Of a DNA stretch of 21,230 nt, positions 1,035 through 12,216 are shown piece after piece. The DNA comes from a virus. Position numbers and translations under genes: made by a program. The stretch spans positions 1-21,230 of IMG/VR virus record IMGVR_UViG_3300032893_000300; one strand, given 5' to 3'. Every line of letters starts with the position of its first letter. Positions within the stretch are counted from its first letter, which is position 1. The notes beneath the pieces were generated by a model. It was not told the DNA's origin. It saw nothing but the letters and a program-made list of their open reading frames with translations, and made no database searches.

Positions 1035-3278
1035 CTATTTATTTTCGAGTCGTTGTGTGTTTGTTTCGTCTTTTGGTAGTTTATTAAGTTTGGCGTGCTG
1101 ATTTCTTGGCGCCTTAATTGGTTGTTGCTGTTGAGGTTGAGCCTTTTGGTAGGTAGATTGCAGCTGTGGTAAACTCTGTAAGCTCTGATCTAAAGGCAGA
1201 CCGGTAAATCTTGATAAGGTTAGTTTGGTTGATAGCGGTAAGTTAACAGATTTTTCGTGATAAGAGTTTTGAATGATTGCGTTCACCATATCCTGATAAA
1301 GAAGAGGATACACAGCTTTTAATGCTTCGATATGGCTTTTGTTGAGTTGAGAGTTATGTATTAAGGTGATAACAGAATAAGGATCCTGAACGATATGAAG
1401 CTTATCCATCCAAGACTTTTGTTCTATTGGCGGAGGTATGTATTCGTTTTTTGAGAAAGGTTGTGGAGTTAACGGAGATTTTGGTATGGTTTGCTTAAGA
1501 TATTGTAATGCGTTAACGGACTTGGCAGAGAAGTTGTTAGCTAATTGATCGTCGTGATGAAAGACTCCTGCTAACTGTCCGATATGCGAGAAGGTTTGTG
1601 GATCATCTGCCTTCTCGTTAACAATATCTACTGCTCTTAAAAACTGTGCCTGTTGATTCTTGGAGTTAGAGCCGGTGATAGCAACTAACGGATGTTTGAC
1701 TGCATTAATTCTCACGGCAGCATTGATTATCGGTTTGCCTTTGATTAATGATTCGCCTAATGTTTGTATATTTTCTGCGGCTGTATCAACTGCTTTCTTG
1801 GTCAATGATAAGCCGATTGTTTTAACTCCATCTTCGGTTAGGTTTTCTGCTATTTTGGATCCTATTTTTGTGGACAGCCATTTTGATAGCGGTTCAGCAA
1901 CTCTATCGGCTATTCCTTCAGAGAGCTTATCGGCAACATAAGCTCCGCCAAAACCTCCAAATTTTAAGCCTGCTACTCTGGCTGCTCCTTTTACGGCAGA
2001 GCGAACATTATCCTTGTCGGTGATAAATGATTGTACCTCTTCGCCAAATGTTTTCTTACTCATTTGTGCGATATATTCTTCAAAGGCTTTATTGGCTACC
2101 TCATCATTTTTTAAGGTTGACATGGTTTTGTTAACTGCCTCATCAACATTAGATTTAAGAACCGATAAGGCTGCTTTTTTAAATTCTGCCTGTGAGCTAT
2201 TAGTAGTCTCTAAATCTGCTATGGCATTTCTTGCTTTAATTGACGACTCAAAATCATCTATGGTGTTAAGGTGTTCTTGTACTTTAGCAACGAAGTCTTT
2301 GGTTGCTGGATCATTATCTGCCACAACTTTAAACTCCGGTGTGTTTGCCTTATCAAGATCGGCTATGATTTTGGATTTATCAAGAGGATCATCCATTCCG
2401 AACAATGATGTTTGTTTGTTGTGTGCTTCTAATCTATCATCTATGGTATTAAGAAAATTATCAAAAGCCTCCTGTTTTGCTGCTGCCGCTGCTGCCTTGG
2501 ATGCCTCTGATTTTGATATTGATTCGGTTAATGCATCGTTGACAGATCTGGATGTATCGTTAAGAGCTGCGGATATTCTTGATCCTCCTACCTCTGCTGC
2601 TCCGGTCAAACCTCCTAATACAACACCAAGACCTCCGCCGGCTAATAAGGTTTCTGCTGCCTTATCTTTTTCTCCGTAATAGGCATAGGTTGCAGCTGCA
2701 GGCGTGGAATAAATCGCTCCTTCGGTTCCAAGCTGGATTGCCTTTCCTGCGATTGTTCTGGCTGCACCTTGTTCAAAACCTTCTAATGCTGCTCGTTCGG
2801 CTAATTGTCCTCCTTTAGTTGCCAAACCTCCAAAGGCTAATGTGGACGCTAAACCGGCTGCTGATCCTGTCCAATGTGCAATAGGATGTTTCTCATCGGC
2901 TAATTCATCTGCCTCTAATTGTGCAGGAGTTGATATGTGCTGTCTGATAATATCGGTGACGCCAAACGATGCATTCTCAACTAAATGACGCATAAATTGA
3001 GCTTCAGCGCTATCTCGTCGTGCGAACGCCTTGGCTAATTCAGGATTCTCCATTAGCTTCTTTTGTAATTCTTCTTCCTCTATTTGTTCCGGTGTTCTTG
3101 TATCCTGAACTGGAACCGTAGGAGGTGGAGCGTTATAACGAGCGATAGCAGCCTTTGCAATATCGTCCGCCTCATCAACTGTATTCTTATCATCAGTTGG
3201 TTTTGCGCCGTATCTGACTAAATCACGATGAGCAAGTTCGTGTACCTGCTTTAATATATCGTCATTGTTATCGGTCAT
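1035..3278 (-). CDS. Large internal virion / DNA-ejection-type protein (747 aa)
   Basis: This 747-aa protein overlaps the upstream gene by ATGA (3275-3278). Residues 1-100 are charged and helical. Residues about 137-156, 177-198 and 208-232 are Gly/Ala-rich hydrophobic segments with glycine-zipper spacing (LLAGGGLGVVLGGLTGAAEVGG), and another lies at about 433-450 (LKFGGFGGAYVA). Between and after these are long Lys/Glu/Ala helices, including A-rich coiled-coil-like stretches at about 250-275 and 360-400. The tail is Gln/Lys-rich (QPQQQQ). This mix of large helical regions and membrane-insertable glycine zippers is characteristic of phage internal (ejection) proteins that leave the capsid ahead of DNA and help form a channel across the cell envelope. 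No lysozyme or transglycosylase motif was seen. The name is therefore based on architecture and position, not on a recognised domain. Confidence 0.7.
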   Translation of the reverse strand: MTDNNDDILKQVHELAHRDLVRYGAKPTDDKNTVDEADDIAKAAIARYNAPPPTVPVQDTRTPEQIEEEELQKKLMENPELAKAFARRDSAEAQFMRHLVENASFGVTDIIRQHISTPAQLEADELADEKHPIAHWTGSAAGLASTLAFGGLATKGGQLAERAALEGFEQGAARTIAGKAIQLGTEGAIYSTPAAATYAYYGEKDKAAETLLAGGGLGVVLGGLTGAAEVGGSRISAALNDTSRSVNDALTESISKSEASKAAAAAAKQEAFDNFLNTIDDRLEAHNKQTSLFGMDDPLDKSKIIADLDKANTPEFKVVADNDPATKDFVAKVQEHLNTIDDFESSIKARNAIADLETTNSSQAEFKKAALSVLKSNVDEAVNKTMSTLKNDEVANKAFEEYIAQMSKKTFGEEVQSFITDKDNVRSAVKGAARVAGLKFGGFGGAYVADKLSEGIADRVAEPLSKWLSTKIGSKIAENLTEDGVKTIGLSLTKKAVDTAAENIQTLGESLIKGKPIINAAVRINAVKHPLVAITGSNSKNQQAQFLRAVDIVNEKADDPQTFSHIGQLAGVFHHDDQLANNFSAKSVNALQYLKQTIPKSPLTPQPFSKNEYIPPPIEQKSWMDKLHIVQDPYSVITLIHNSQLNKSHIEALKAVYPLLYQDMVNAIIQNSYHEKSVNLPLSTKLTLSRFTGLPLDQSLQSLPQLQSTYQKAQPQQQQPIKAPRNQHAKLNKLPKDETNTQRLENK

Positions 3279-5119
3279 TGTTCACCGTTATCATTATCGT
3301 CAACGCTTTCTGGTTTATAGGTTTCCATAAAGTATTTGAAGCCAGCTTGTCTCTGTCTTATCTCCTCATCGCTCATCCAAGGATAGATCTTATATGCCTT
3401 GGTAATAGTCTGGTTTTTTTCTGGATCTCGATAAACTTTCGCTAACGCATCAACTCCTCCGTTATATGCGTCGTATTGCTGGCGTAGTAATTGTGGATCC
3501 TTAACTCCAAATAATCTTGACGCTGCATCAAGACCAAGACCAGATCGCACAACTCTTGCTGCAGGACTCATGTCTGAACTTCCGGATGCTAATGTTCTGC
3601 CAACGCGTCCTCCTGCAAATACTCCAGTTCCATCTCCGGAAAATACACCTCCGTTCTGTGGATGTCCGGACGCATCAAGCATTGGAGCAACATCTACTTT
3701 TGGTTTCTTACCTCTTGCTCTATTATCATCTTCTTCCATTTGGTTTTTGTGTTGCAACATAAGCTTATCGATTTCAAATCTGCGTGCACTTTCTTGCTCT
3801 GCTTTTGCTCTTGCTGCCGCTGCCGCTTCTGTTTCATCTTTCTTTCTGACATTATACATCATCTGTTGAGATTCGATGCGGAGTTTATTTTCTTGTCGTT
3901 CAATTTCGTTAATCATCATTTGACCTCGTTCCTTCACAACCTTTGAATCTGTGAGGTTCATTAATGACTGAATCTTATCTTTTACAAGACCATAGGAAAC
4001 GCTGCTTAAATCGGCTTTTTCCTTATGCATAAAGGCGTTTCTTGCAAACTCTCGGTCATTTAAGCTGATAGTTTGCTCAACTTGTTTCCATTGCTTTTCG
4101 ATATTGCTTTTTTGTGCATCGATATTATTGACGATAGCCTGATTGATTAATTGCATTGCTGTGTTAGGTGTGGCTTGTCCGTGGATTGCCGATACACCAG
4201 ATCCAAATGCGCCAAGTCCGATAGAGATAGCAGCTCCAATACTTCCTGCAATTCCGGCATTCTTCCAAAACTGATTAGGATCAATGTCTTTGATTTCAGC
4301 AATTCTATCTCTGATTGCTTGATCACGCTCTGCATTCTTTTGTTGGATCGCATTCCAGTCGTTTTCTTGTTTGAGTAAATCATCCTCTCGTTTCTTAATT
4401 GCATCGTCCTGTAATTTTGACGCTGCTGCATATCCATCGGCTTGTAGTTGTGCGATTGTTCCTGTGTGCGTTTTATCATCCTCAAAACTTGCATCGTTTC
4501 TTTTTTGGTATTCTCCTAACTGTTTGATGAATTGCGATGATGCTGACGGTCCTCCTGGTCCTGCATTCCTGTTATCCTTCTTTATTGCTTCTCCGGCAGG
4601 TTCTTCAGCCTTTCCATTTGGTTGCGTTTGTGGATCGGTTAATGTTGGAGCCTTATAGTTTAATTCTTTATCTAAATCAGTTCCAGGATGATAGGCTCCG
4701 AGTCCGCGAGTTAAGAATGTTGTTCCTGCATAGAGAGGATCTTGAGCGAAGTCTTTTTTGAAGTTGTCGGCTGATCTACCAAGGTTATCAACTGCACCAT
4801 TGACATATCTACCAACGGCTTGACCTGCTGGACTTTGTGCAAATGCTTGTCCTGCATTTCTACCTGCCGCCACAAGAGCAGGATTACCGGTAATAGGATC
4901 GCCAGGTCCTCCGTTTAATGCCTTATGAAGTCCGCCTGATAATGCTTGTCCTGCATCATTAGCAGCGCCAGCAACAGATCCAGATAAGATAGGATTGCCG
5001 TTTCCTGCAGCAGCTTGACCGGCAGATTGAGCGGCAAGGTCAGCATCGATCATTTTCTTGGTTTCTTCTGGACCAAGTTTATAAACCATACTTGCGATTT
5101 CTTGTTGTGTGTAAGGCAT
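3275..5119 (-). CDS. Coiled-coil internal virion / ejection-type protein (614 aa)
   Basis: A 614-aa protein (MPYTQQEIASMVYK...) whose ATG shares one base with the stop of the previous gene (TAATG at 5119). Its stop overlaps the next start by ATGA. Residues 30-110 are Gly/Ala/Asn-rich with zipper-like spacing. Residues about 196-280 are strongly helical and charged, a likely coiled coil. Residues 286-313 form a hydrophobic segment (FWKNAGIAGSIGAAISIGLG), followed by N-T-A-M-Q-L-I-N-Q-A-I-V-N-N-I-D-A-Q-K and a second coiled coil to about 470. The pattern 'DPNxFW, Gly/Ala hydrophobic hairpin, then xxINxAIxxxIxAQK' recurs in ejection proteins of uncultured podoviruses as I know them. The C-terminal 110 residues look globular (Y-P-W-M-S-D-E-E-I-R). 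The proposed role is genome delivery in complex with the neighbouring proteins; no enzymatic motif is visible. Confidence 0.72.
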   Translation of the reverse strand: MPYTQQEIASMVYKLGPEETKKMIDADLAAQSAGQAAAGNGNPILSGSVAGAANDAGQALSGGLHKALNGGPGDPITGNPALVAAGRNAGQAFAQSPAGQAVGRYVNGAVDNLGRSADNFKKDFAQDPLYAGTTFLTRGLGAYHPGTDLDKELNYKAPTLTDPQTQPNGKAEEPAGEAIKKDNRNAGPGGPSASSQFIKQLGEYQKRNDASFEDDKTHTGTIAQLQADGYAAASKLQDDAIKKREDDLLKQENDWNAIQQKNAERDQAIRDRIAEIKDIDPNQFWKNAGIAGSIGAAISIGLGAFGSGVSAIHGQATPNTAMQLINQAIVNNIDAQKSNIEKQWKQVEQTISLNDREFARNAFMHKEKADLSSVSYGLVKDKIQSLMNLTDSKVVKERGQMMINEIERQENKLRIESQQMMYNVRKKDETEAAAAARAKAEQESARRFEIDKLMLQHKNQMEEDDNRARGKKPKVDVAPMLDASGHPQNGGVFSGDGTGVFAGGRVGRTLASGSSDMSPAARVVRSGLGLDAASRLFGVKDPQLLRQQYDAYNGGVDALAKVYRDPEKNQTITKAYKIYPWMSDEEIRQRQAGFKYFMETYKPESVDDNDNGEQ

Positions 5120-6108
5120 TATTTTTTGTATCCTTTTATAAATTGTTGTTCTATATGATCTAATCTCTTATTAATCATAGCAACGGCAGCTAATGTGATA
5201 CCGCCTAATCTACCATAGTTAACCATCTTTCCTTCTGGTGTATCTACAACGGCAGATTTACCTACATCTGTTTTTTCTAATTCTTGTGCCATAGGTGAGA
5301 CAAATCTACCTTCTCCGTGTTTAGGATTTTTGTACTCGTAAGAATGTGCACCAAGAGACTTAATAAAGTCTGATACGGTTTTGTCTGCCGGCTCGATATC
5401 CTTTTTTTTATCCTCATCTGATAATAGGTTGTTGGTTGCGATAGGTGGATTATATACTAAAGGCTTGTGATATCCGAGAGTTTGAGAGGCTAAAAAATGT
5501 GTATCTATTGGATTGTAGACTGGAGGATTGTATGTTGGAGGTTTTTGATATCCGAGAGTTTTAGCGGCTGTTGTTGTATCTGTAGAGCCACCTGAATCAT
5601 CATTGGCTGGTTTTTGATATCCGAGAGTTTTAGCGGCTGTTGTTTTATCTGTAGAGTCGCTTGAATCATCATTGGCAGGTTTTTGATAGTCAGAGCTTTT
5701 AGCGGCTGTTGTTGTATCTGTAGAGTCGCTTGAATCTGAATCATGTTTTACATTGTCGGTTGCAAACTTGTCAGCAAATGTTCCGTCTCCTGTCTTATAG
5801 TTTTGTGTGCCTGGCGTGTCATAAGGTCCAGAGTAGGTTGTAGGATTTTGAAATGTTTGTCCGATGTTAGTTAAGGTTCCTTTGTTGCCTAACGGATTGA
5901 GGTTTGAGGTATTGACTAACGGATTAGCTTGTACCGGTTGTTGAGGTTGCTGAACATTCATAAAAGCATTGTTCGATCCTGCCTGTGGTTGCTGTCTTAA
6001 TGATTGAAGGAAACTCTGTATTTGTGCAGGATTTCCGCTTAATGATTGCTGTTCATTAGGCAACGGTGCAGGTTGTGATTGTGCTAAATTTCCTAAAGAG
6101 TTGATCAT
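5119..6108 (-). CDS. Repeat-rich protein with C-terminal S74-like (intramolecular chaperone) domain (329 aa)
   Basis: This 329-aa protein starts at 6108 in an ATGA overlap with the upstream stop. Residues 1-120 are Gln/Pro/Asn-rich and probably disordered. Residues 125-190 hold three near-identical 23-residue units (D-S-x-x-S-T-D-x-T-T-A-A-K-x-x-x-Y-Q-K-P). A degenerate fourth T-L-G-Y-H-K-P occurs at about 210-216. Residues 230-329 resemble the intramolecular chaperone/peptidase S74 domain: S-D-E-D-K-K-K-D-I at the start, H-S-Y-E-Y, then F-V-S-P-M-A-Q-E-L-E (equivalent to the family's G-F-I-A-Q-E-V) and V-N-Y-G-R-L...A-A-V-A-M-I-N-K-R-L-D. In characterised family members the domain trimerises a fibre and then cuts itself off at the opening Ser using a nearby Lys. 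Ser230 and Lys235 fit that spacing. It is unusual that the body is low-complexity rather than a beta-helical tailspike. Confidence 0.8.
   Translation of the reverse strand: MINSLGNLAQSQPAPLPNEQQSLSGNPAQIQSFLQSLRQQPQAGSNNAFMNVQQPQQPVQANPLVNTSNLNPLGNKGTLTNIGQTFQNPTTYSGPYDTPGTQNYKTGDGTFADKFATDNVKHDSDSSDSTDTTTAAKSSDYQKPANDDSSDSTDKTTAAKTLGYQKPANDDSGGSTDTTTAAKTLGYQKPPTYNPPVYNPIDTHFLASQTLGYHKPLVYNPPIATNNLLSDEDKKKDIEPADKTVSDFIKSLGAHSYEYKNPKHGEGRFVSPMAQELEKTDVGKSAVVDTPEGKMVNYGRLGGITLAAVAMINKRLDHIEQQFIKGYKK
5122..5421 (-). other. S74 / intramolecular chaperone-like domain, full-length copy
   Basis: The last 100 residues of the 329-aa protein. S-D at the start, Lys five residues after the Ser, the P-M-A-Q-E-L-E core, and a terminal coiled-coil-like helix (ITLAAVAMINKRLDHIEQQ) match the family layout. 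The usual Leu before the Lys is replaced by Lys (DEDKKKD). Confidence 0.75.
5540..5746 (-). repeat. Three tandem 69-bp coding repeats
   Basis: Units begin at about 5540, 5609 and 5678 (each starts ggtttttgata on the plus strand), so the period is exactly 69 bp or 23 codons and the reading frame is kept. The first two are nearly identical. The third differs mainly at TLG versus SSD. A related half unit lies at about 5462-5494. In-frame expansion or contraction is expected for such an array. Confidence 0.9.
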
Positions 6109-6698
6109 AAGGTCCTGTAGATATGTTTGAGAAAACTGCGTATGTCTCTATCTGCTGCGGTGATATTCTTTTTTAGATTTCTATCCGATACAAGATAAGG
6201 ATTTTCTTTTGTAGAAGGTGTTGACGGACTGTTAGATACGGTATTGATTGACGGTGCAGATTGTGAGCTTTGAGTTTGAGGTGGCGCTGAATAGATTTGA
6301 TGAAAGGTTGAGTTAGTTCCATCTCCTGAACTGTCTATTTTAGTAGGCGTTCTATTACCGGTATCAGATGCAAGTCCTGATATCTGCTTATTTGGAGCTG
6401 CCGGAGTAATAGGACTTCGCATATAATTAGCTAACTTGTCATAGTTGCCATTTAAGGTATTATCAACATCCGAGTAATCCTGAAAGAATTTGGTATCTCC
6501 TTTTTGTGTAGGTGCATTATCGCCGTGAGAAACAACATTCTTGATATCTCGATACTGTGCAGCAACATATGGAGCAGAGGCAATAGCTCCTCCAATGATC
6601 GATCCTACCGGTCCTGCTCCTGCTCCTGCCATCATTCCTCCGCCAGCAGCTAATGCTCCGCCTAACATATGCTCAAACCAGTCAGCTGATGAACTCAT
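6105..6698 (-). CDS. Glycine-zipper protein with truncated S74-type C-terminal tag (197 aa)
   Basis: A 197-aa protein whose ATG at 6698 overlaps the upstream stop (ATGA), with AGGA inside the preceding gene's last codons as ribosome site. Residues 11-50 form a strongly hydrophobic Gly/Ala/Met segment (MLGGALAAGGGMMAGAGAGP then VGSIIGGAIASAP), a good membrane-insertion or glycine-zipper candidate. Residues 55-165 are polar, Ser/Thr/Pro/Gln-rich and probably disordered. Residues 171-197 are S-D-R-N-L-K-K-N-I...R-S-F-L-K-H-I-Y, the opening of an S74-type domain, cut off after the first helix. The context (between two other proteins ending in the same tag and next to ejection-type proteins) points to an internal virion protein. 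The function of the tag is unknown. Confidence 0.75.
   Translation of the reverse strand: MSSSADWFEHMLGGALAAGGGMMAGAGAGPVGSIIGGAIASAPYVAAQYRDIKNVVSHGDNAPTQKGDTKFFQDYSDVDNTLNGNYDKLANYMRSPITPAAPNKQISGLASDTGNRTPTKIDSSGDGTNSTFHQIYSAPPQTQSSQSAPSINTVSNSPSTPSTKENPYLVSDRNLKKNITAADRDIRSFLKHIYRTL
6108..6188 (-). other. Truncated S74-type C-terminal tag, copy 3
   Basis: Residues 171-197 of the 197-aa protein: SDRNLKKNI, TAADRD, IRSFLKHIYRTL. The first codons are almost identical in DNA to copy 2 (TCGGAnAGAAATCTAAAAAA). The last codons (CATATCTACAGGACC) also supply the AGGA ribosome site of the next gene. Confidence 0.85.
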
Positions 6699-7174
6699 TT
6701 TGTCCTGCTGTAGATATGGTTAAGGAAGTTTCGTAATTTATCTTCTGCCGGCTTGATTTTCTTTTTTAGATTTCTGTCCGAATAGCTAATCATTTGAGGC
6801 TCGCGGTATTCGACTGGTTGATAGCCGATACCTGTTTGCTGCAGATTGGTTGTTGGTGTTGCTTGTTTTTGGACATTGATTTGTGGATAGTTGTAGATTG
6901 AGGAGAATGCATCGCTCTGCATTTGAGCCATAGCCGCGGACATTAAACCTTGACCGGCTGTTGCTACGGCTTGACCTGCTCCTTTGATTGCTTCCTTCTT
7001 GGACTTCTGTTCTTCAGTTTCTTTTGGCTTATCTGGTTTAGCATTTGGATCAGATGCATTTGGATTAGCATTTGGATCCGGTTGAGCCGTGTTGTTATAC
7101 GGTATGACATTTGCCGGAGGTTGTTGTGGCTGATTCTGTTTATTAGGATCGTTTGGATCATCGTATGCTAACAT
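6695..7174 (-). CDS. Disordered protein with hydrophobic segment and truncated S74-type tag (159 aa)
   Basis: The start at 7174 follows a TAGGA ribosome site formed partly by the stop codon of the upstream gene. Residues 1-60 are Asn/Pro/Asp/Gln-rich (DPNDPNKQNQPQQPP), ending in a Lys/Glu cluster. Residues 62-86 are a Gly/Ala/Met hydrophobic helix (GAGQAVATAGQGLMSAAMAQ), borderline for membrane insertion. After a polar linker, residues 132-159 read S-D-R-N-L-K-K-K-I-K-P-A...R-N-F-L-N-H-I-Y-S-R-T-K, an S74-type opening with nothing behind it. The layout 'variable body, hydrophobic segment, SDxxLK tail' is shared with the two flanking genes. A small ejection protein is the most likely role. I do not recognise the body from any named family. 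Confidence 0.75.
   Translation of the reverse strand: MLAYDDPNDPNKQNQPQQPPANVIPYNNTAQPDPNANPNASDPNAKPDKPKETEEQKSKKEAIKGAGQAVATAGQGLMSAAMAQMQSDAFSSIYNYPQINVQKQATPTTNLQQTGIGYQPVEYREPQMISYSDRNLKKKIKPAEDKLRNFLNHIYSRTK
6698..6781 (-). other. Truncated S74-type C-terminal tag, copy 2
   Basis: Residues 132-159 of the 159-aa protein: SDRNLKKKI, KPAEDK, LRNFLNHIYSRTK. It is the copy closest in protein sequence to copy 1 (IKPAE shared) and closest in DNA to copy 3, and so links them. Confidence 0.85.
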
Positions 7175-7183
7175 TGTGGTATC

Positions 7184-8308
7184 CTATTTGGTCAATGAGT
7201 TAAGAAATGATCTAACGGTTCTTTCTGCAGGCTTAATGGCTTTCTTCAATCGTCTATCTGATGCTGCTTGTATAGCTGCTCCTCCGATTGCTCCGGCTGC
7301 TGATATACCGGCTCCTGCAAGACCGAGGTTTTGTGCGTTTTGGTCGGCTGTTTGCTTCGCGTCTATCTGTGCTGATACTGCCTGTTGGTTTGCGATGAGC
7401 TGCCAATATGCTGCCTGGTTAGAGATATCTGTTTGGTTCTGGTTCATATAGTTGGATAGCAAGTTAGCATAGGTCTGGTTGTTTAATGTGTTGGTGTTCA
7501 GTTGTGATTGCTGATTAGCCAATTGCACCTGTTGATCCATTGCACCTTGCTGTCCGATTAGTTGATTGTATTGTGCAGCGTTAGCCAGTCCTGCTTGCTG
7601 ATACAATGCTGCCTGCTGTTGATCGGTTGTATTCTTTGCCGCCTGATTTGCCAGTCCTGCTTGTTGATAGAGTTGAGCCTGGTTAAGAGTCATATTCTGA
7701 CCTTGACCTCTGGCTGTTGATAAGGCGCTATTCAAGGCATTTTCGGCATTCATTTGCTCCTGTACCTTACCTAATACTCCGGCTTGGACTGCTTGTTGAT
7801 TGGCTTGCGAACCTGCATCCATAGCGGCTCGTTGTGCTAACGCTGGATTAGACGATCCTCTGGCAGATGCGAGCATTGCCATTTGTCCTTGGATGTTTTG
7901 TTGTGCCTGCTGTTGAGCCTGCATTTGAGCGATTGAAGGTGCTGAACCGTTAGCCTGTGCGTTTAGCTGATTGATAAATTGAGCCTGTGCATTGGCAAAG
8001 CTTTGATCTTGTGCAGAGGCTACCTGTGCTCCGCCGTACAGAGAAGGAGAGGCGATACTTGCTCCGCCATACTGTTTTGCTGCTCCTAATGTGGTGAGGT
8101 TAGCGATTGGCGAGACGGTTTGAGCGTTGTTGTTTAGACCGGCAGCGATAAGATTATAAACATTGCCAGCGTTATTATCGTTAAATGCTGCAGTATTAAT
8201 AGGAGACGCATTTGGACCGAATGCGCTTGCTTGCGGCTTGCCTGTAGTCGGATCCATTAGTCCTGTTGTTCCTGCGCTATTTGCTAAATAGGAAAAATCT
8301 AATGCCAT
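7184..8308 (-). CDS. Gln/Ala-rich ejection-type protein with truncated S74-type tag (374 aa)
   Basis: A 374-aa protein (MALDFSYLANSAGTTG...) starting at 8308 behind a GAGG ribosome site. Residues 100-315 are extremely Gln/Ala/Asn-rich and predicted helical or coiled coil. They include the L-A-S-A-R-G-S-S-N-P-A-L-A-Q-R-A-A stretch (146-162), which I associate with putative DNA-transfer proteins of many environmental podoviruses, and a duplicated L-Y-Q-Q-A-G-L-A-N (213-221 and 235-243). Residues about 328-348 are a Gly/Ala hydrophobic segment (LGLAGAGISAAGAIGGAAIQ). Residues 350-374 are S-D-R-R-L-K-K-A-I-K-P-A-E...R-S-F-L-N-S-L. It is the first of a run of internal-protein genes after the nozzle gene. 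A role in forming the ejection conduit is likely but inferred. Confidence 0.78.
   Translation of the reverse strand: MALDFSYLANSAGTTGLMDPTTGKPQASAFGPNASPINTAAFNDNNAGNVYNLIAAGLNNNAQTVSPIANLTTLGAAKQYGGASIASPSLYGGAQVASAQDQSFANAQAQFINQLNAQANGSAPSIAQMQAQQQAQQNIQGQMAMLASARGSSNPALAQRAAMDAGSQANQQAVQAGVLGKVQEQMNAENALNSALSTARGQGQNMTLNQAQLYQQAGLANQAAKNTTDQQQAALYQQAGLANAAQYNQLIGQQGAMDQQVQLANQQSQLNTNTLNNQTYANLLSNYMNQNQTDISNQAAYWQLIANQQAVSAQIDAKQTADQNAQNLGLAGAGISAAGAIGGAAIQAASDRRLKKAIKPAERTVRSFLNSLTK
7187..7261 (-). other. Truncated S74-type C-terminal tag, copy 1
   Basis: Residues 350-374 of the 374-aa protein: SDRRLKKAI, KPAERTV, RSFLNSLTK. The tag follows directly on the Gly/Ala hydrophobic segment. 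The DNA differs from copies 2 and 3 more than the protein does (TTGAAGAAA versus CTAAAAAAG for LKK), so this copy is older or came from another source. Confidence 0.85.
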
Positions 8309-8338: not shown

Positions 8339-11300
8339 CTATTTCGTTCCGTAGGTTGAGGAGGCAGGCAAACGATTTCCGCCAGGCAACGCTCCAACCT
8401 CAAAAGTAATAGCTGATATGCTGTATCCTTCGTTGTAGTTTGATGATTGTGAGTCTGATATTTGTAGTCTTATTGAGGTGCATAACTGTTGCGAGAAATC
8501 GATCCTAAATTCGTAGATATTGTATTCTCCACCGAACGGACTTGATTCGCCATAGATACTATCGTCTCCGTAGATTGTGGTTCCTTGGCTTGCTAATACG
8601 GTTGCAGATTGTGTGTAGGTAGGATTGTTATCATACGCCACATTAACTAATAAATTATGAACGCCTTTGTAGGTACCTAAAATATAGGCTCTGAAGACTC
8701 GCTGATATCCGTTCAAACCTGCAAAAGAAAGATTAGGCGTAACGAACGATAGCGGTATAGGTGCTCCGTTATCTGTATACGATCCTGGTGTTTGCTTCAT
8801 TACCATACCGTTTGATTGGATATAATAAAAAGATCCGTCCGGTGTGGTATCGCTATCTACTGCATATTGATTGGTCCAGGTACTCCATTGCTGGAAGTAA
8901 TAATCGTAGACTAATGTGGTTCCGGTGTTGGTGACGAAAACAACCTGATTGGTATTTGGTATAAGAGAGGATGAGGTGATAACATTAGAATTATATTGTT
9001 CTACCGGTGCTCCGATATAGCTAACATTTAATGCCTGATCCAATAAATAGATACCTTTGTCTGATTGGAATATTAAGCCACCAGGAAAGATGACCACGCT
9101 GTTAGGATTGTTGCAACCAATATCCGACGAAATCATTTGTGGATCCGGAAACTGATCTCCTCCACCGGTTGCATTAGGTCCGTCTCCATTCAGCACGAAA
9201 ATAGCTGTTTTTTTGAAGATGATAAGGTTGTTGTTTAAGAGTCCTAATGCCGTAATTGCTCCGCCTCTTGGATCTACTCCTATTGTTAAGGATGCAGAAA
9301 ATTCAACCGGCAAGGTGTTAAATGAACTGTTATCAAACCTGTTTTGTGAGAACCATAAGAGATTTGGATCATCAAGTCCGCCAACGATAACTCTGTTTTG
9401 ATAGGCTGTGATTAACGAACAAGAAGGAGGTGCAGAGTTAGGTAAGACTCCTCCGGTTGTGTAGAGGTAGGCATTTGCGCTAATTGAGTTGTCGGACAAG
9501 TAATCAGTAAATGTAACCGTATCAACTGTTGTGTCATTTAGTAGAGGTGAAAGATTGGATGTGACCTGATTAAAAACAACACCATTGGCAGCAGTTCTAT
9601 AGATAACGATATTGACATTGCTGCGGTTGTTTTGCTTTGCCGTTAAGCGTAATGTAGGTATTGTCAAGGTGATATGATTGTTAGCAGCTGCATTAACGGT
9701 TACGGTAGGACTTGGAGAGGATCGTTGTATCTGTCCATAGCTATCCATCCATTCGTAGGTGACCTGATACTGATAGGTTCCTGCAGATAAGTATCCGTCT
9801 GATCCTGATGCAACGGCTAATACATTTTCTGGATACAAATGAAACAGATGCTCAACAAAAGAATTGCCGTCATAGCTTTGTAAGATTCCTCCTCCTAATA
9901 AGAGGTTATTAGAAGAGGTGACCGATAAGAAGTCTGCTATGTTAGAAAAATCTAATGAGGTAGAACAAACACCTAATAAAGTAAAGATAACAAGGCTTTC
10001 GGATAATACCTGTCCTTTCTGTAAGGTGGCAACTGCAGCAAGAGTAGAGGTTTGCCAAGCTACTTCCGATAATGTGTTATTGGTTCGTAAGCCTCCTCCG
10101 GTTCCTGATGAGGTTTTGGAAATAATTGAAAACGGTGCTGCTGTGATATTAACACAAAAATAAGTTGATTGTAATGGCGATTGAAAGGTCACCATTGCAT
10201 AGATCTGTGAATTAAGTTTAAATGCTTTTGATGCCAGTCCTACCGATCGTAATGTTCCTACGGTTGATACGGTTCCTGTCTTGGTTATGGTCTTGCTAAC
10301 GATTTTGGTGTTCATTTGGTTAGCGTTATAGACTTCGTAGGTTAGTTGTAAGGTTCCGGCAGAAGGACTTTCGCAACCGGTTAATGTGCTCGCCTGTACG
10401 GTATCAACAACTGTATCTGCAAGAACCTGAACCAAATTATAGGAATAGCAGGAAGTTCTAACATGTTGTCCTTCTAACCAAGAGATCCAAAGATTGGTGT
10501 TAGAATCGGAACAAATGTTGAGAGCTGATGAATAGCCTGTATTTATAGCCTTTCCTGCGCTGCTTTCGATAACGGTAGTAAGGCTCTTGTTGAGTTGAGT
10601 ATCTAAATAAAAAGCAGAGATTTGACCGGACGCAACATAATTTGATAAATAGGCAACAAAGATTCTGGATCCTACAACTGTTGCATCAAAGGAGAAGTTT
10701 GTGTATCCATCATTAAGCAATAAGGTTTGGCTCTGAATGACCGTTGGATTCTTTGGACTAACAATTTGATAGTAGAGCGCGTGAGAGGAACTATCATTAT
10801 AGAAAATAATGAATTGATTTTGAAAGGAAACAACTTTAGGTTTTTGATAAGAACCAGATAAGCCTATTTGCACATCGGAAACAATAATCGATCCTGATCT
10901 GGTGTCTCTAACTGAATATCTAATACCTCCTCTGCTGTCCTCATATACATAGAGGTTCATACCATTGCAGTAACAAACATCCGGATTAAGTTGTTGTGCA
11001 GCGCTTGATCTGGTTATCTTGGTGGTGTTTGAGATAACTGATTGAGCATTGCCACGATTGATCCAAGTTCCTGTTGTATTGATATAGGAATAGATACTGT
11101 TGCCGTCCATAAGAAGTAATTCGTTGTTAAAAGATTGAACGGCTTTTCCTGTTGTGATTGATGATGAGGATCCTTCGATTGTTCGTGATAGAGCTGTATA
11201 TCCGTATCGCTTATTGATTTGACCTTTTTGCGAGAACTGTCCGTTTTGCAAAGATAATAGATTACCAGCCAATACCTGATGAGGATCGGTCTTTGTATCG

Positions 11301-11356
11301 ATGCCGCCTGTAAAAGCGATTGGAAAAAGTTGTTTCTCTACAAATGCCATCATCAT
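8339..11356 (-). CDS. Tail nozzle / hub-like structural protein (1005 aa)
   Basis: A 1005-aa, mostly beta protein. It opens with F-T-G-G-I-D-T-K-T-D-P-H-Q-V-L-A-G-N-L-L then K-R-Y-G-Y, a signature I associate with podoviral nozzle/stabilisation proteins (P22 gp10 / T7 gp12-like position). Around residues 645-670 is Q-N-R-V-I-V-G-G-L-D-D-P-N-L-L-W-F-S. It is followed by L-I-I-F-K-K-T-A-I-F-V-L-N-G, D-I-G-C-N-N-P-N-S-V-V, L-I-F-Q-S-D-K-G-I-Y-L-L-D and V-Y-D-Y-Y-F-Q-Q-W-S-T-W, as expected for beta-propeller blades of a nozzle. There is no transmembrane segment. The start is ambiguous among three consecutive ATG codons (11356, 11353, 11350); the first overlaps the stop of the preceding gene. The likely role is to close the tail channel and carry fibres. 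The family is recognised by pattern, not by alignment. Confidence 0.72.
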   Translation of the reverse strand: MMMAFVEKQLFPIAFTGGIDTKTDPHQVLAGNLLSLQNGQFSQKGQINKRYGYTALSRTIEGSSSSITTGKAVQSFNNELLLMDGNSIYSYINTTGTWINRGNAQSVISNTTKITRSSAAQQLNPDVCYCNGMNLYVYEDSRGGIRYSVRDTRSGSIIVSDVQIGLSGSYQKPKVVSFQNQFIIFYNDSSSHALYYQIVSPKNPTVIQSQTLLLNDGYTNFSFDATVVGSRIFVAYLSNYVASGQISAFYLDTQLNKSLTTVIESSAGKAINTGYSSALNICSDSNTNLWISWLEGQHVRTSCYSYNLVQVLADTVVDTVQASTLTGCESPSAGTLQLTYEVYNANQMNTKIVSKTITKTGTVSTVGTLRSVGLASKAFKLNSQIYAMVTFQSPLQSTYFCVNITAAPFSIISKTSSGTGGGLRTNNTLSEVAWQTSTLAAVATLQKGQVLSESLVIFTLLGVCSTSLDFSNIADFLSVTSSNNLLLGGGILQSYDGNSFVEHLFHLYPENVLAVASGSDGYLSAGTYQYQVTYEWMDSYGQIQRSSPSPTVTVNAAANNHITLTIPTLRLTAKQNNRSNVNIVIYRTAANGVVFNQVTSNLSPLLNDTTVDTVTFTDYLSDNSISANAYLYTTGGVLPNSAPPSCSLITAYQNRVIVGGLDDPNLLWFSQNRFDNSSFNTLPVEFSASLTIGVDPRGGAITALGLLNNNLIIFKKTAIFVLNGDGPNATGGGDQFPDPQMISSDIGCNNPNSVVIFPGGLIFQSDKGIYLLDQALNVSYIGAPVEQYNSNVITSSSLIPNTNQVVFVTNTGTTLVYDYYFQQWSTWTNQYAVDSDTTPDGSFYYIQSNGMVMKQTPGSYTDNGAPIPLSFVTPNLSFAGLNGYQRVFRAYILGTYKGVHNLLVNVAYDNNPTYTQSATVLASQGTTIYGDDSIYGESSPFGGEYNIYEFRIDFSQQLCTSIRLQISDSQSSNYNEGYSISAITFEVGALPGGNRLPASSTYGTK

Positions 11357-12216
11357 TCAAAATAAATTATTGTAAGTTGTCCGCTTCCACCGTTTCCTCC
11401 GCCTGCTCCTACTCCTCCTCCGCTGCTTCCGTTTCCTGTTGCGCCTCCTCCGCCTCCTCCTGCTCCGGAGTTAGCTGCTGCATTTGATCCTACCGATCCA
11501 GCCACTCCGGTTCCAAGATTGTTTCCGCTGCCACCATTTCCTCCGTTTCCTCCGGCTCCGTAAGGTCCTGCTCCGCCTCCGCCTCCTCCTCCTCCGCCGA
11601 AATAACCTACAACGGTTGCTCCTGTTGTTCCTGCTGTTCCTGGTGCGTATCCGCCTATGACATGCGATGATCCTGCTGTTGATACTTGTCCGTTGGTGAC
11701 TGCGTTTCCGTTTGTGCCAAAACCTCCTGCTCCTGGACATCCGATATGAGGATTAACAGAGGTGGTTGAGGTTCCTGGTACCAATGCCTGACCTGCTATT
11801 ACTCCACCTTGCGCCAATAAAACTGTGGTTGACGGAGATAAGATAGCGGATACCTGACCTCCTCCTCCGCCAGCAAAAACGGCAACATCAGAACTGCCGT
11901 GTACTGTAAATTTGGTTGGATTACCGTCATTACCTGCTGTTCCTCCGCCGGATCCGCTTCCTCCTGTTCCGCCTGTTCCTATGGTTACATCATAGACTGT
12001 ATTAGGAGATACTTGGATCCACATACTAACATACGGTGCCGCTCCTCCGCCTCCGCCACCACAAGCAGCTGTGTTAGTTGCAGAGGTTCCTTGACTGCCT
12101 CCTGCTCCGCCTCCGCCTCCTCCGCATCCTTCTAAATAAACGAAGGTGACACCAGGCGGACAAGTCCAAGCCGATGAAGTTGTAGAGGTCCAAGTTTTTG
12201 TCGCTATGTTTGCCAT
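11353..12216 (-). CDS. Glycine-rich adhesin-like protein (287 aa)
   Basis: A 287-aa protein with an N-terminal beta segment (TKTWTSTTSSAWTCPPGVTF then VYLEGCGGGGGGAGG). It is followed by many Gly runs separated by short strands, including about ten Gly in a row near residue 206, and it ends G-Q-L-T-I-I-Y-F-E. The 'W-x-x-P-x-G-V-x-x-V-x-x-x-x-x-G-G-G-G-G' opening and the strand-like ending match the glycine-rich domain found in phage receptor-binding proteins. The best-studied relatives in style are gp38-type adhesins, which pack as polyglycine-II helices. The start at 12216 has an AAGGA site that overlaps the TAA of the upstream gene. Its place between the fibre-like gene and the nozzle gene supports a host-recognition or fibre-tip role. 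Receptor and trimer state cannot be told from sequence. Confidence 0.75.
   Translation of the reverse strand: MANIATKTWTSTTSSAWTCPPGVTFVYLEGCGGGGGGAGGSQGTSATNTAACGGGGGGAAPYVSMWIQVSPNTVYDVTIGTGGTGGSGSGGGTAGNDGNPTKFTVHGSSDVAVFAGGGGGQVSAILSPSTTVLLAQGGVIAGQALVPGTSTTSVNPHIGCPGAGGFGTNGNAVTNGQVSTAGSSHVIGGYAPGTAGTTGATVVGYFGGGGGGGGGAGPYGAGGNGGNGGSGNNLGTGVAGSVGSNAAANSGAGGGGGGATGNGSSGGGVGAGGGNGGSGQLTIIYFE

Follow-up and report, generated by a model that had tools for sequence, protein, structure and literature searches.

A family of uncultured, short-tailed-type phages was found to place the first 25-28 residues of the S74 domain, a self-cutting folding domain, on neighbouring proteins of virion type while omitting the remainder, and to keep this in split-gene as well as fused-gene versions. 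The pattern suggests that the peptide serves to plug several different proteins into a common domain. The window analysed here is the whole of a 21,230-base virus record of IMG/VR (IMGVR_UViG_3300032893_000300, positions 1-21,230). The genes of interest all lie on its minus strand, in the order terminase, portal, scaffold-like protein, major capsid protein, adaptor, 1005-aa nozzle-like protein, four genes with an S74 motif, 614-aa protein and 747-aa protein. The major capsid protein scores 58.6 bits against the NCBIfam podovirus capsid model, which is under the model cut-off of 80, and the adaptor gene matches SU10_adaptor in Pfam. Our ORF check reproduced the coordinates and tail lengths that a preliminary description had given for the four consecutive genes. 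The Gln-rich gene that opens the four is referred to below as slot 1 and the position after it as slot 2.

8339..11356, minus strand: 1005-aa putative nozzle or tail-hub protein upstream of the four genes, named from a match to phrog_3287 (1.5e-9)
7184..8308, minus strand: 374-aa protein, Gln/Ala-rich, slot 1 (ORF; 43% over 365 aa to a 456-aa protein of L003)
7187..7261, minus strand: bare S74 opening of the 374-aa protein, residues 350-374, SDRRLKKAIKPAERTVRSFLNSLTK
6695..7174, minus strand: 159-aa protein, slot 2 (ORF)
6698..6781, minus strand: bare S74 opening of the 159-aa protein, residues 132-159, SDRNLKKKIKPAEDKLRNFLNHIYSRTK
6105..6698, minus strand: 197-aa protein, second copy of slot 2, with a Gly/Ala-rich hydrophobic N-terminal part (ORF)
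6108..6188, minus strand: bare S74 opening of the 197-aa protein, residues 171-197, SDRNLKKNITAADRDIRSFLKHIYRTL
5119..6108, minus strand: 329-aa protein with a helix-only motif copy, repeats and a full S74 (ORF)
5122..5421, minus strand: full S74/ICA domain, residues 230-329 of the 329-aa protein (PF13884, 3gud, AF2, Foldseek)
5353..5421, minus strand: the full domain's own opening (Ser-Lys strand and alpha1), the part that stands alone in the three tails
3275..5119, minus strand: 614-aa protein, downstream and kept in relatives, candidate ejection protein by position
1035..3278, minus strand: 747-aa protein, downstream and kept in relatives, candidate ejection protein by position

The 374-, 159- and 197-aa proteins end in a bare S74/ICA opening of the form SDxxLKxxI...FLxxL. 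Counted from the start of the S-D-x-x-x-K motif, 25, 28 and 27 residues respectively remain to the C-terminus, and 100 in the 329-aa protein. In alignment, the tails cover the initial 25-28 residues of the full S74, that is the Ser-Lys strand, in which the two residues are 5 apart, and then alpha1; they stop ahead of beta1, and the donut strands and the trimer helix are absent in all three proteins. BLASTP relates the 159-aa protein to the 374-aa protein (E=3.6e-6 over 23 residues) and to the 197-aa protein (E=1.4e-6, 66 residues), and the 197-aa protein to the 374-aa protein (E=3e-4). With a 26-column motif HMM the window copies score 32-39 bits and the best of the reversed ORFs 5.4 bits; the window copies are themselves in this HMM and the fair test is given by homologues found later, of which L111 scores 35 and 26 bits. 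Lys-rich low complexity as the source of the likeness is rejected by this control. A Pfam search gives no S74 match at E=1 for the bare tails, and a profile built from them alone is too short for scanning. Halves of S74 hidden downstream of the tails are excluded for the 159- and 197-aa genes, as each overlaps the next gene by 4 bases (ATGA); the gap between the 374- and 159-aa genes is only about 10 bases. A second S74 match, in the 614-aa protein (4448-4543, E=5e-4), is under the cut-off, has no opening motif and was put down to chance.

The full domain of the 329-aa protein passes the Pfam S74 model (PF13884; 9.1e-8, 32.7 bits, cut-off 22). The Ser-Lys dyad at a spacing of 5 and the YxY of beta1 are invariant in 20 homologues, and in the PDB a profile of these finds 3gud, the neck appendage of a phage (1.7e-5), and 6f45, a long tail fibre (2e-3). 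The AlphaFold (AF2) model of the domain, with a mean pLDDT of 86.8, has a helix at 28-37, strands at 41-44 and 54-57, short helices, strands at 73-76 and 79-82 and a long helix at 84-114. Its best Foldseek match is the MyRF ICA domain (7dc3; probability 1.00, TM 0.64, E=2.4e-3), followed by the endosialidase chaperone 3gw6. The 329-aa protein is thus predicted to carry the ICA fold with its long C-terminal helix, and the assignment of the tails to S74, made in the preliminary description, stands on the motif alignment together with these searches and the model.

Known S74 domains are homotrimers, and in the phage endosialidase and the T5 fibre an arginine of the upstream triple beta-helix takes part; no triple beta-helix stalk is apparent here. 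The 329-aa protein resembles the S74 domains of fibres and spikes in fold class, in the Ser-x4-Lys spacing, in alpha1 followed by the YxY of beta1 and in the terminal helix. Those domains, however, are found whole on the one fibre or spike which they fold and then leave, whereas here a whole domain is accompanied by two to three openings that lack the remainder of the domain, on other proteins of the nozzle-to-ejection block. In MyRF the catalytic dyad consists of Ser587 and Lys592, equivalent to S911 and K916 of endoNF, the cut falls before Ser, and the cut strand (the 'cable') comes from the neighbouring subunit and threads a 'donut' of beta strands (PMC8326128). The T5 protein pb1 uses Ser1264/Lys1269 likewise (PMC4690869), and in ICA trimers with a defective trimer helix in one chain all three chains are still cut (PMC6972908). 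The spacing from Ser to Lys(+5) in the tails is that of the MyRF and endoNF pairs. The MyRF ICA domain (7DC3) is further alike in its donut without a long tentacle and in its cable from a neighbour, but there a single protein forms the homotrimer. The literature searched, which covered few subscription journals, gave no account of S74 openings detached from their domain. For the MyRF ICA domain, we know of no detached cables.

The bodies of the four proteins may be of the ejection type, as gene order and one distant match in a relative suggest. This match is between the 387-aa Gln-rich, S74-bearing protein of L008 and phrog_4287, 'DNA ejection protein' (E=1e-5); the window's own 374-aa protein, in contrast, does not match this family. 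The four proteins of the window match no ejection family of Pfam, PHROG or NCBIfam, and the 374-, 159-, 197-, 614- and 747-aa proteins have no convincing PHROG or Pfam match.

The bodies had been described as unrelated in sequence. This holds for the 374-aa protein against the rest, but not for the 159- and 197-aa proteins, which have a short box in common, and a further trace of the motif was found in the 329-aa protein:

6893..6907, minus strand: FSSIY box of the 159-aa protein, common to slot-2 proteins (short, weak)
6291..6305, minus strand: FHQIY box of the 197-aa protein, common to slot-2 proteins (short, weak)
5956..6039, minus strand: helix-only copy of motif 2 (SGNPAQIQSFLQSLRQ...NNAFMN), lacking the Ser-Lys strand, near the N-terminus of the 329-aa protein (hhalign)

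The FxxIY box stands 39-42 residues before the tail in the two window proteins and is also found in the counterparts of relatives; in slot-2 proteins in general an FxxIY/F box stands 33-51 residues before the tail. As the box is common to both and their tails are the closest pair at the DNA level, the 159- and 197-aa proteins are probably diverged duplicates, on weak evidence. A 273-aa Ala-rich protein in the split cluster of L014 (L014:14902-15723) has an FxxIF box and no S74 opening, and is a possible slot-2 relative. The helix-only copy aligns with the second motif of the fused relatives described below (hhalign, 95.3%, E=2.2e-8), and the 329-aa protein and its counterparts in L003 and L011 are homologous in their N-terminal part to the motif-2 region of the fused proteins, with the helix alone kept. 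Elsewhere in the 329-aa gene, a 69-base unit occurs in frame about three times in tandem ahead of the S74 (5535-5736); it encodes a repeat of the DDSxxSTDTTTAAKTLGYQKPAN type.

Relatives were sought with the nozzle family and with the S74 domain as queries, which gave more than 150 loci of uncultured phages, all of them on uncultured contigs and some being overlapping stretches of the same contig; the 374-aa protein as a direct query found none. Four arrangements were seen after the nozzle gene. Where S74 is absent, the Gln-rich protein has another ending, frequently a PAMLSPGE-type domain. Where one S74 is present, the full domain is on the Gln-rich protein itself (L008, L038, L085, L089, L092, L095, L096, L104, L114, the marine L124/L144 and others), and the 374-aa protein is the orthologue of this gene, which bears the full S74 in many relatives. 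In the split arrangement, found in four genomes (the window, L003, L011/L013 and L014), the slot-1 and slot-2 genes carry bare tails, and the full S74 is on the gene that follows; slot 2 is occupied twice in the window. In the fused arrangement a single protein of 934-1348 aa contains two bare motifs in its interior and ends in a full S74; this form occurs in six genomes of a sister clade (L015, L094, L098, L100, L111, L191) and in L084. By BLASTP the fused proteins match the 374-aa protein in their Gln-rich part and the 329-aa protein in their S74, in the same order. Two bare slots and one full S74 are present in 11 of the 11 genomes with split or fused architecture.

Several other features of these loci were recorded. 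In relatives that have no bare tail (L004, L005, L006, L007, L009, L010, L016, L112, L141, L163, L174, L185), the Gln-rich protein encoded after the nozzle often ends in a 'PAMLSPGEVVVPRS'-type domain, and L004 and L097 have this domain plus S74. A gene for 110-160 aa, GNAT acetyltransferase-like by eye, lies between the nozzle and Gln-rich genes in many relatives (for example L004:5725-6135, L005:11300-11695, L008:12879-13265 and L112:11848-12222) and is lacking in the window. Directly upstream of the window's nozzle gene is a gene for a 287-aa Gly-rich protein (11353-12216), and a similar gene occupies the same place in the fused relatives L015, L084, L100 and L191. Among INPHARED phages no match was found to the nozzle, to the relatives' Gln-rich and S74 proteins or to the S74 domain (1e-5), and there was one weak portal match. 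In the genome contigs searched, S74 matched none and the nozzle two, and the one of these examined, L185 (a Burkholderiales MAG), is without S74.

In the nozzle tree the four split genomes form one clade (SH-aLRT 100), the six fused genomes are its sister (100) and both together form one clade (99); L084 falls outside, and a single origin for all eleven is not rejected (p-AU 0.37). Nozzle identity within the split and fused group falls to about 34-40%, and both bare slots have therefore long been kept. Ser1, Asp2 and Lys6 are invariant in all 23 bare motifs, copies that were found partly by a motif requiring these residues, although the slots were also located by position and both are present in all eleven genomes. 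Position 9 is Ile or Val, position 19 is Phe in 22 of the 23 and position 20 is Leu, Phe or Met. Across five fused proteins, pairwise identity averages 0.70 in motif 1 and 0.63 in motif 2, against 0.61 in S74 and 0.29 in between; the bare motifs are conserved to the same degree as the full S74 domain.

Comparison of the 374 and 159 tails gives 0.91 synonymous changes per site, near saturation, and 0.32 non-synonymous, from small numbers in one region. Recent duplication or recombination linkers are rejected for these two tails on that account. The pN/pS values of the L011 and L013 tails are 0.27 and 0.18. At L013:14110-14563 the slot-1 and slot-2 motifs begin with the same 20 bases, which differ from those of L011; this suggests gene conversion between the tails of one genome. 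Tail identity in the split genomes is 0.44 within a genome against 0.36 for the same slot across genomes, whereas the fused genomes show the opposite trend (0.42 against 0.65), so that likeness within a genome is not a general rule.

We favour the reading that the bare tails are detached 'cable plus helix 1' modules of S74/ICA used as docking peptides, and give it a probability close to, though short of, an even chance. The 329-aa protein would supply the only complete S74, with its donut of beta strands and trimerising helix, and the tails of the 374-, 159- and 197-aa proteins would insert in trans into the S74 donuts, as a neighbour's strand does in the normal trimer. Docking would gather the tailed proteins into one heteromeric assembly, and the sister clade would have the same parts in one fused chain; the presence of these parts in the same order, whether fused or split, suggests that they associate. 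Of the possibilities named in the preliminary description, we thus prefer assembly on the full domain, since in MyRF the element that crosses to the neighbouring subunit is the one to which the tail corresponds (PMC8326128). As the catalytic Ser and Lys are kept in all bare copies, the full S74 domain would probably cut before Ser, trimming the tails once the assembly is correct. The possible conversion of slot-1 and slot-2 cables in L013 may be a sign of matched tails.

The motif might instead be a self-standing oligomerisation or assembly motif in which S74 is no longer involved, acting by helix pairing among the tailed proteins or by binding some other part of the virion, for example the nozzle or the 614- and 747-aa proteins. 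The conserved helix residues (I9, a hydrophobic residue at 16, F19 and L20) agree with this, and so does the fact that the 329-aa protein and its counterparts still have a copy of the helix that lacks the Ser-Lys strand, but the invariant Ser, Asp and Lys would be needless for a helix-only interaction and the full S74 is always downstream in the same cluster, and we regard it as unlikely. If the helix were all that mattered, the dyad would drift. It is rather less likely still that the motif is a cleavage site only, the split copies being the relic of an ancestral fused polyprotein cut at its motifs by the C-terminal S74. The motifs do stand at segment boundaries in the fused proteins and at gene ends in the split genomes; there is, however, nothing to separate in split genomes, yet S, D and K are present in 9 of 9 tails (L003, L011, L014 and the window), the 374 and 159 tails have diverged to near synonymous saturation, and the direction from fused to split is an assumption on which the nozzle tree gives no order. 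Split genomes thus keep the motif without a polyprotein to cut, and polyprotein separation is not its sole use.

The preliminary description had proposed a C-terminal tag, possibly for sorting into the head. A C-terminal tag is too narrow a description, as the motif is internal in the fused proteins of the sister clade, and head sorting found no specific support. A sorting tag of this kind would contact scaffold or portal and so bring proteins of ejection type into the procapsid. It would suit a motif on several different bodies adjoining the nozzle gene, and one homologue resembles a DNA ejection protein; the 614- and 747-aa ejection candidates nevertheless lack the tail, the same gene in most relatives has the full S74 or a different C-terminal domain, and no link of the motif to scaffold or portal was found, which leaves this reading little probability. 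Least probable, and already disfavoured, is that the tails are decayed S74 remnants or recombination linkers without a function as protein. Slot 1 is the exact place of the full S74 in relatives, which makes truncation the likely origin of the tail, and the L013 tails show apparent gene conversion. Against decay stand the conservation at the protein level across deep divergence, the two slots with their invariant residues in every split or fused genome, and a motif identity above that of the S74 domain in the fused proteins; together with the near-saturated synonymous change, these bear out the earlier view that the tails are functional rather than decaying.

For docking in trans, the simplest reading of split genes with an intact, non-drifting dyad is that a donut is still engaged by the opening and may also be where the opening is cut; this donut could only belong to the full S74 protein encoded beside the tails. 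The ICA trimers in which one defective chain leaves all chains cut (PMC6972908) are a precedent. It counts against docking that the full S74 has its own opening, with which the bare tails must compete or else join mixed trimers, and so do the homotrimeric action of known S74 domains and the lack here of an apparent triple beta-helix stalk. The 273-aa L014 protein, a related paralogue that has no tail, also counts against docking. An AlphaFold model of a fused fragment (pLDDT 41) is too poor to show docking. A bolder and more doubtful proposal is that one complete S74 receives and cuts, in trans, the dyad-bearing peptides of several virion proteins, which would be an assembly checkpoint for a multi-protein ejection complex whose split and polyprotein forms are interchangeable.

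S74/ICA domains have so far been viewed as homotrimeric sensors of folding, each private to a single spike or fibre or, in animals, to MyRF. The detached openings and the equivalence of split and fused forms suggest that the contact of cable and donut can work between different proteins. The tail and the S74 domain may supply a natural peptide-docking pair, and they offer a handle on how, across a large group of phages that are uncultured, an unusual set of virion proteins is assembled.
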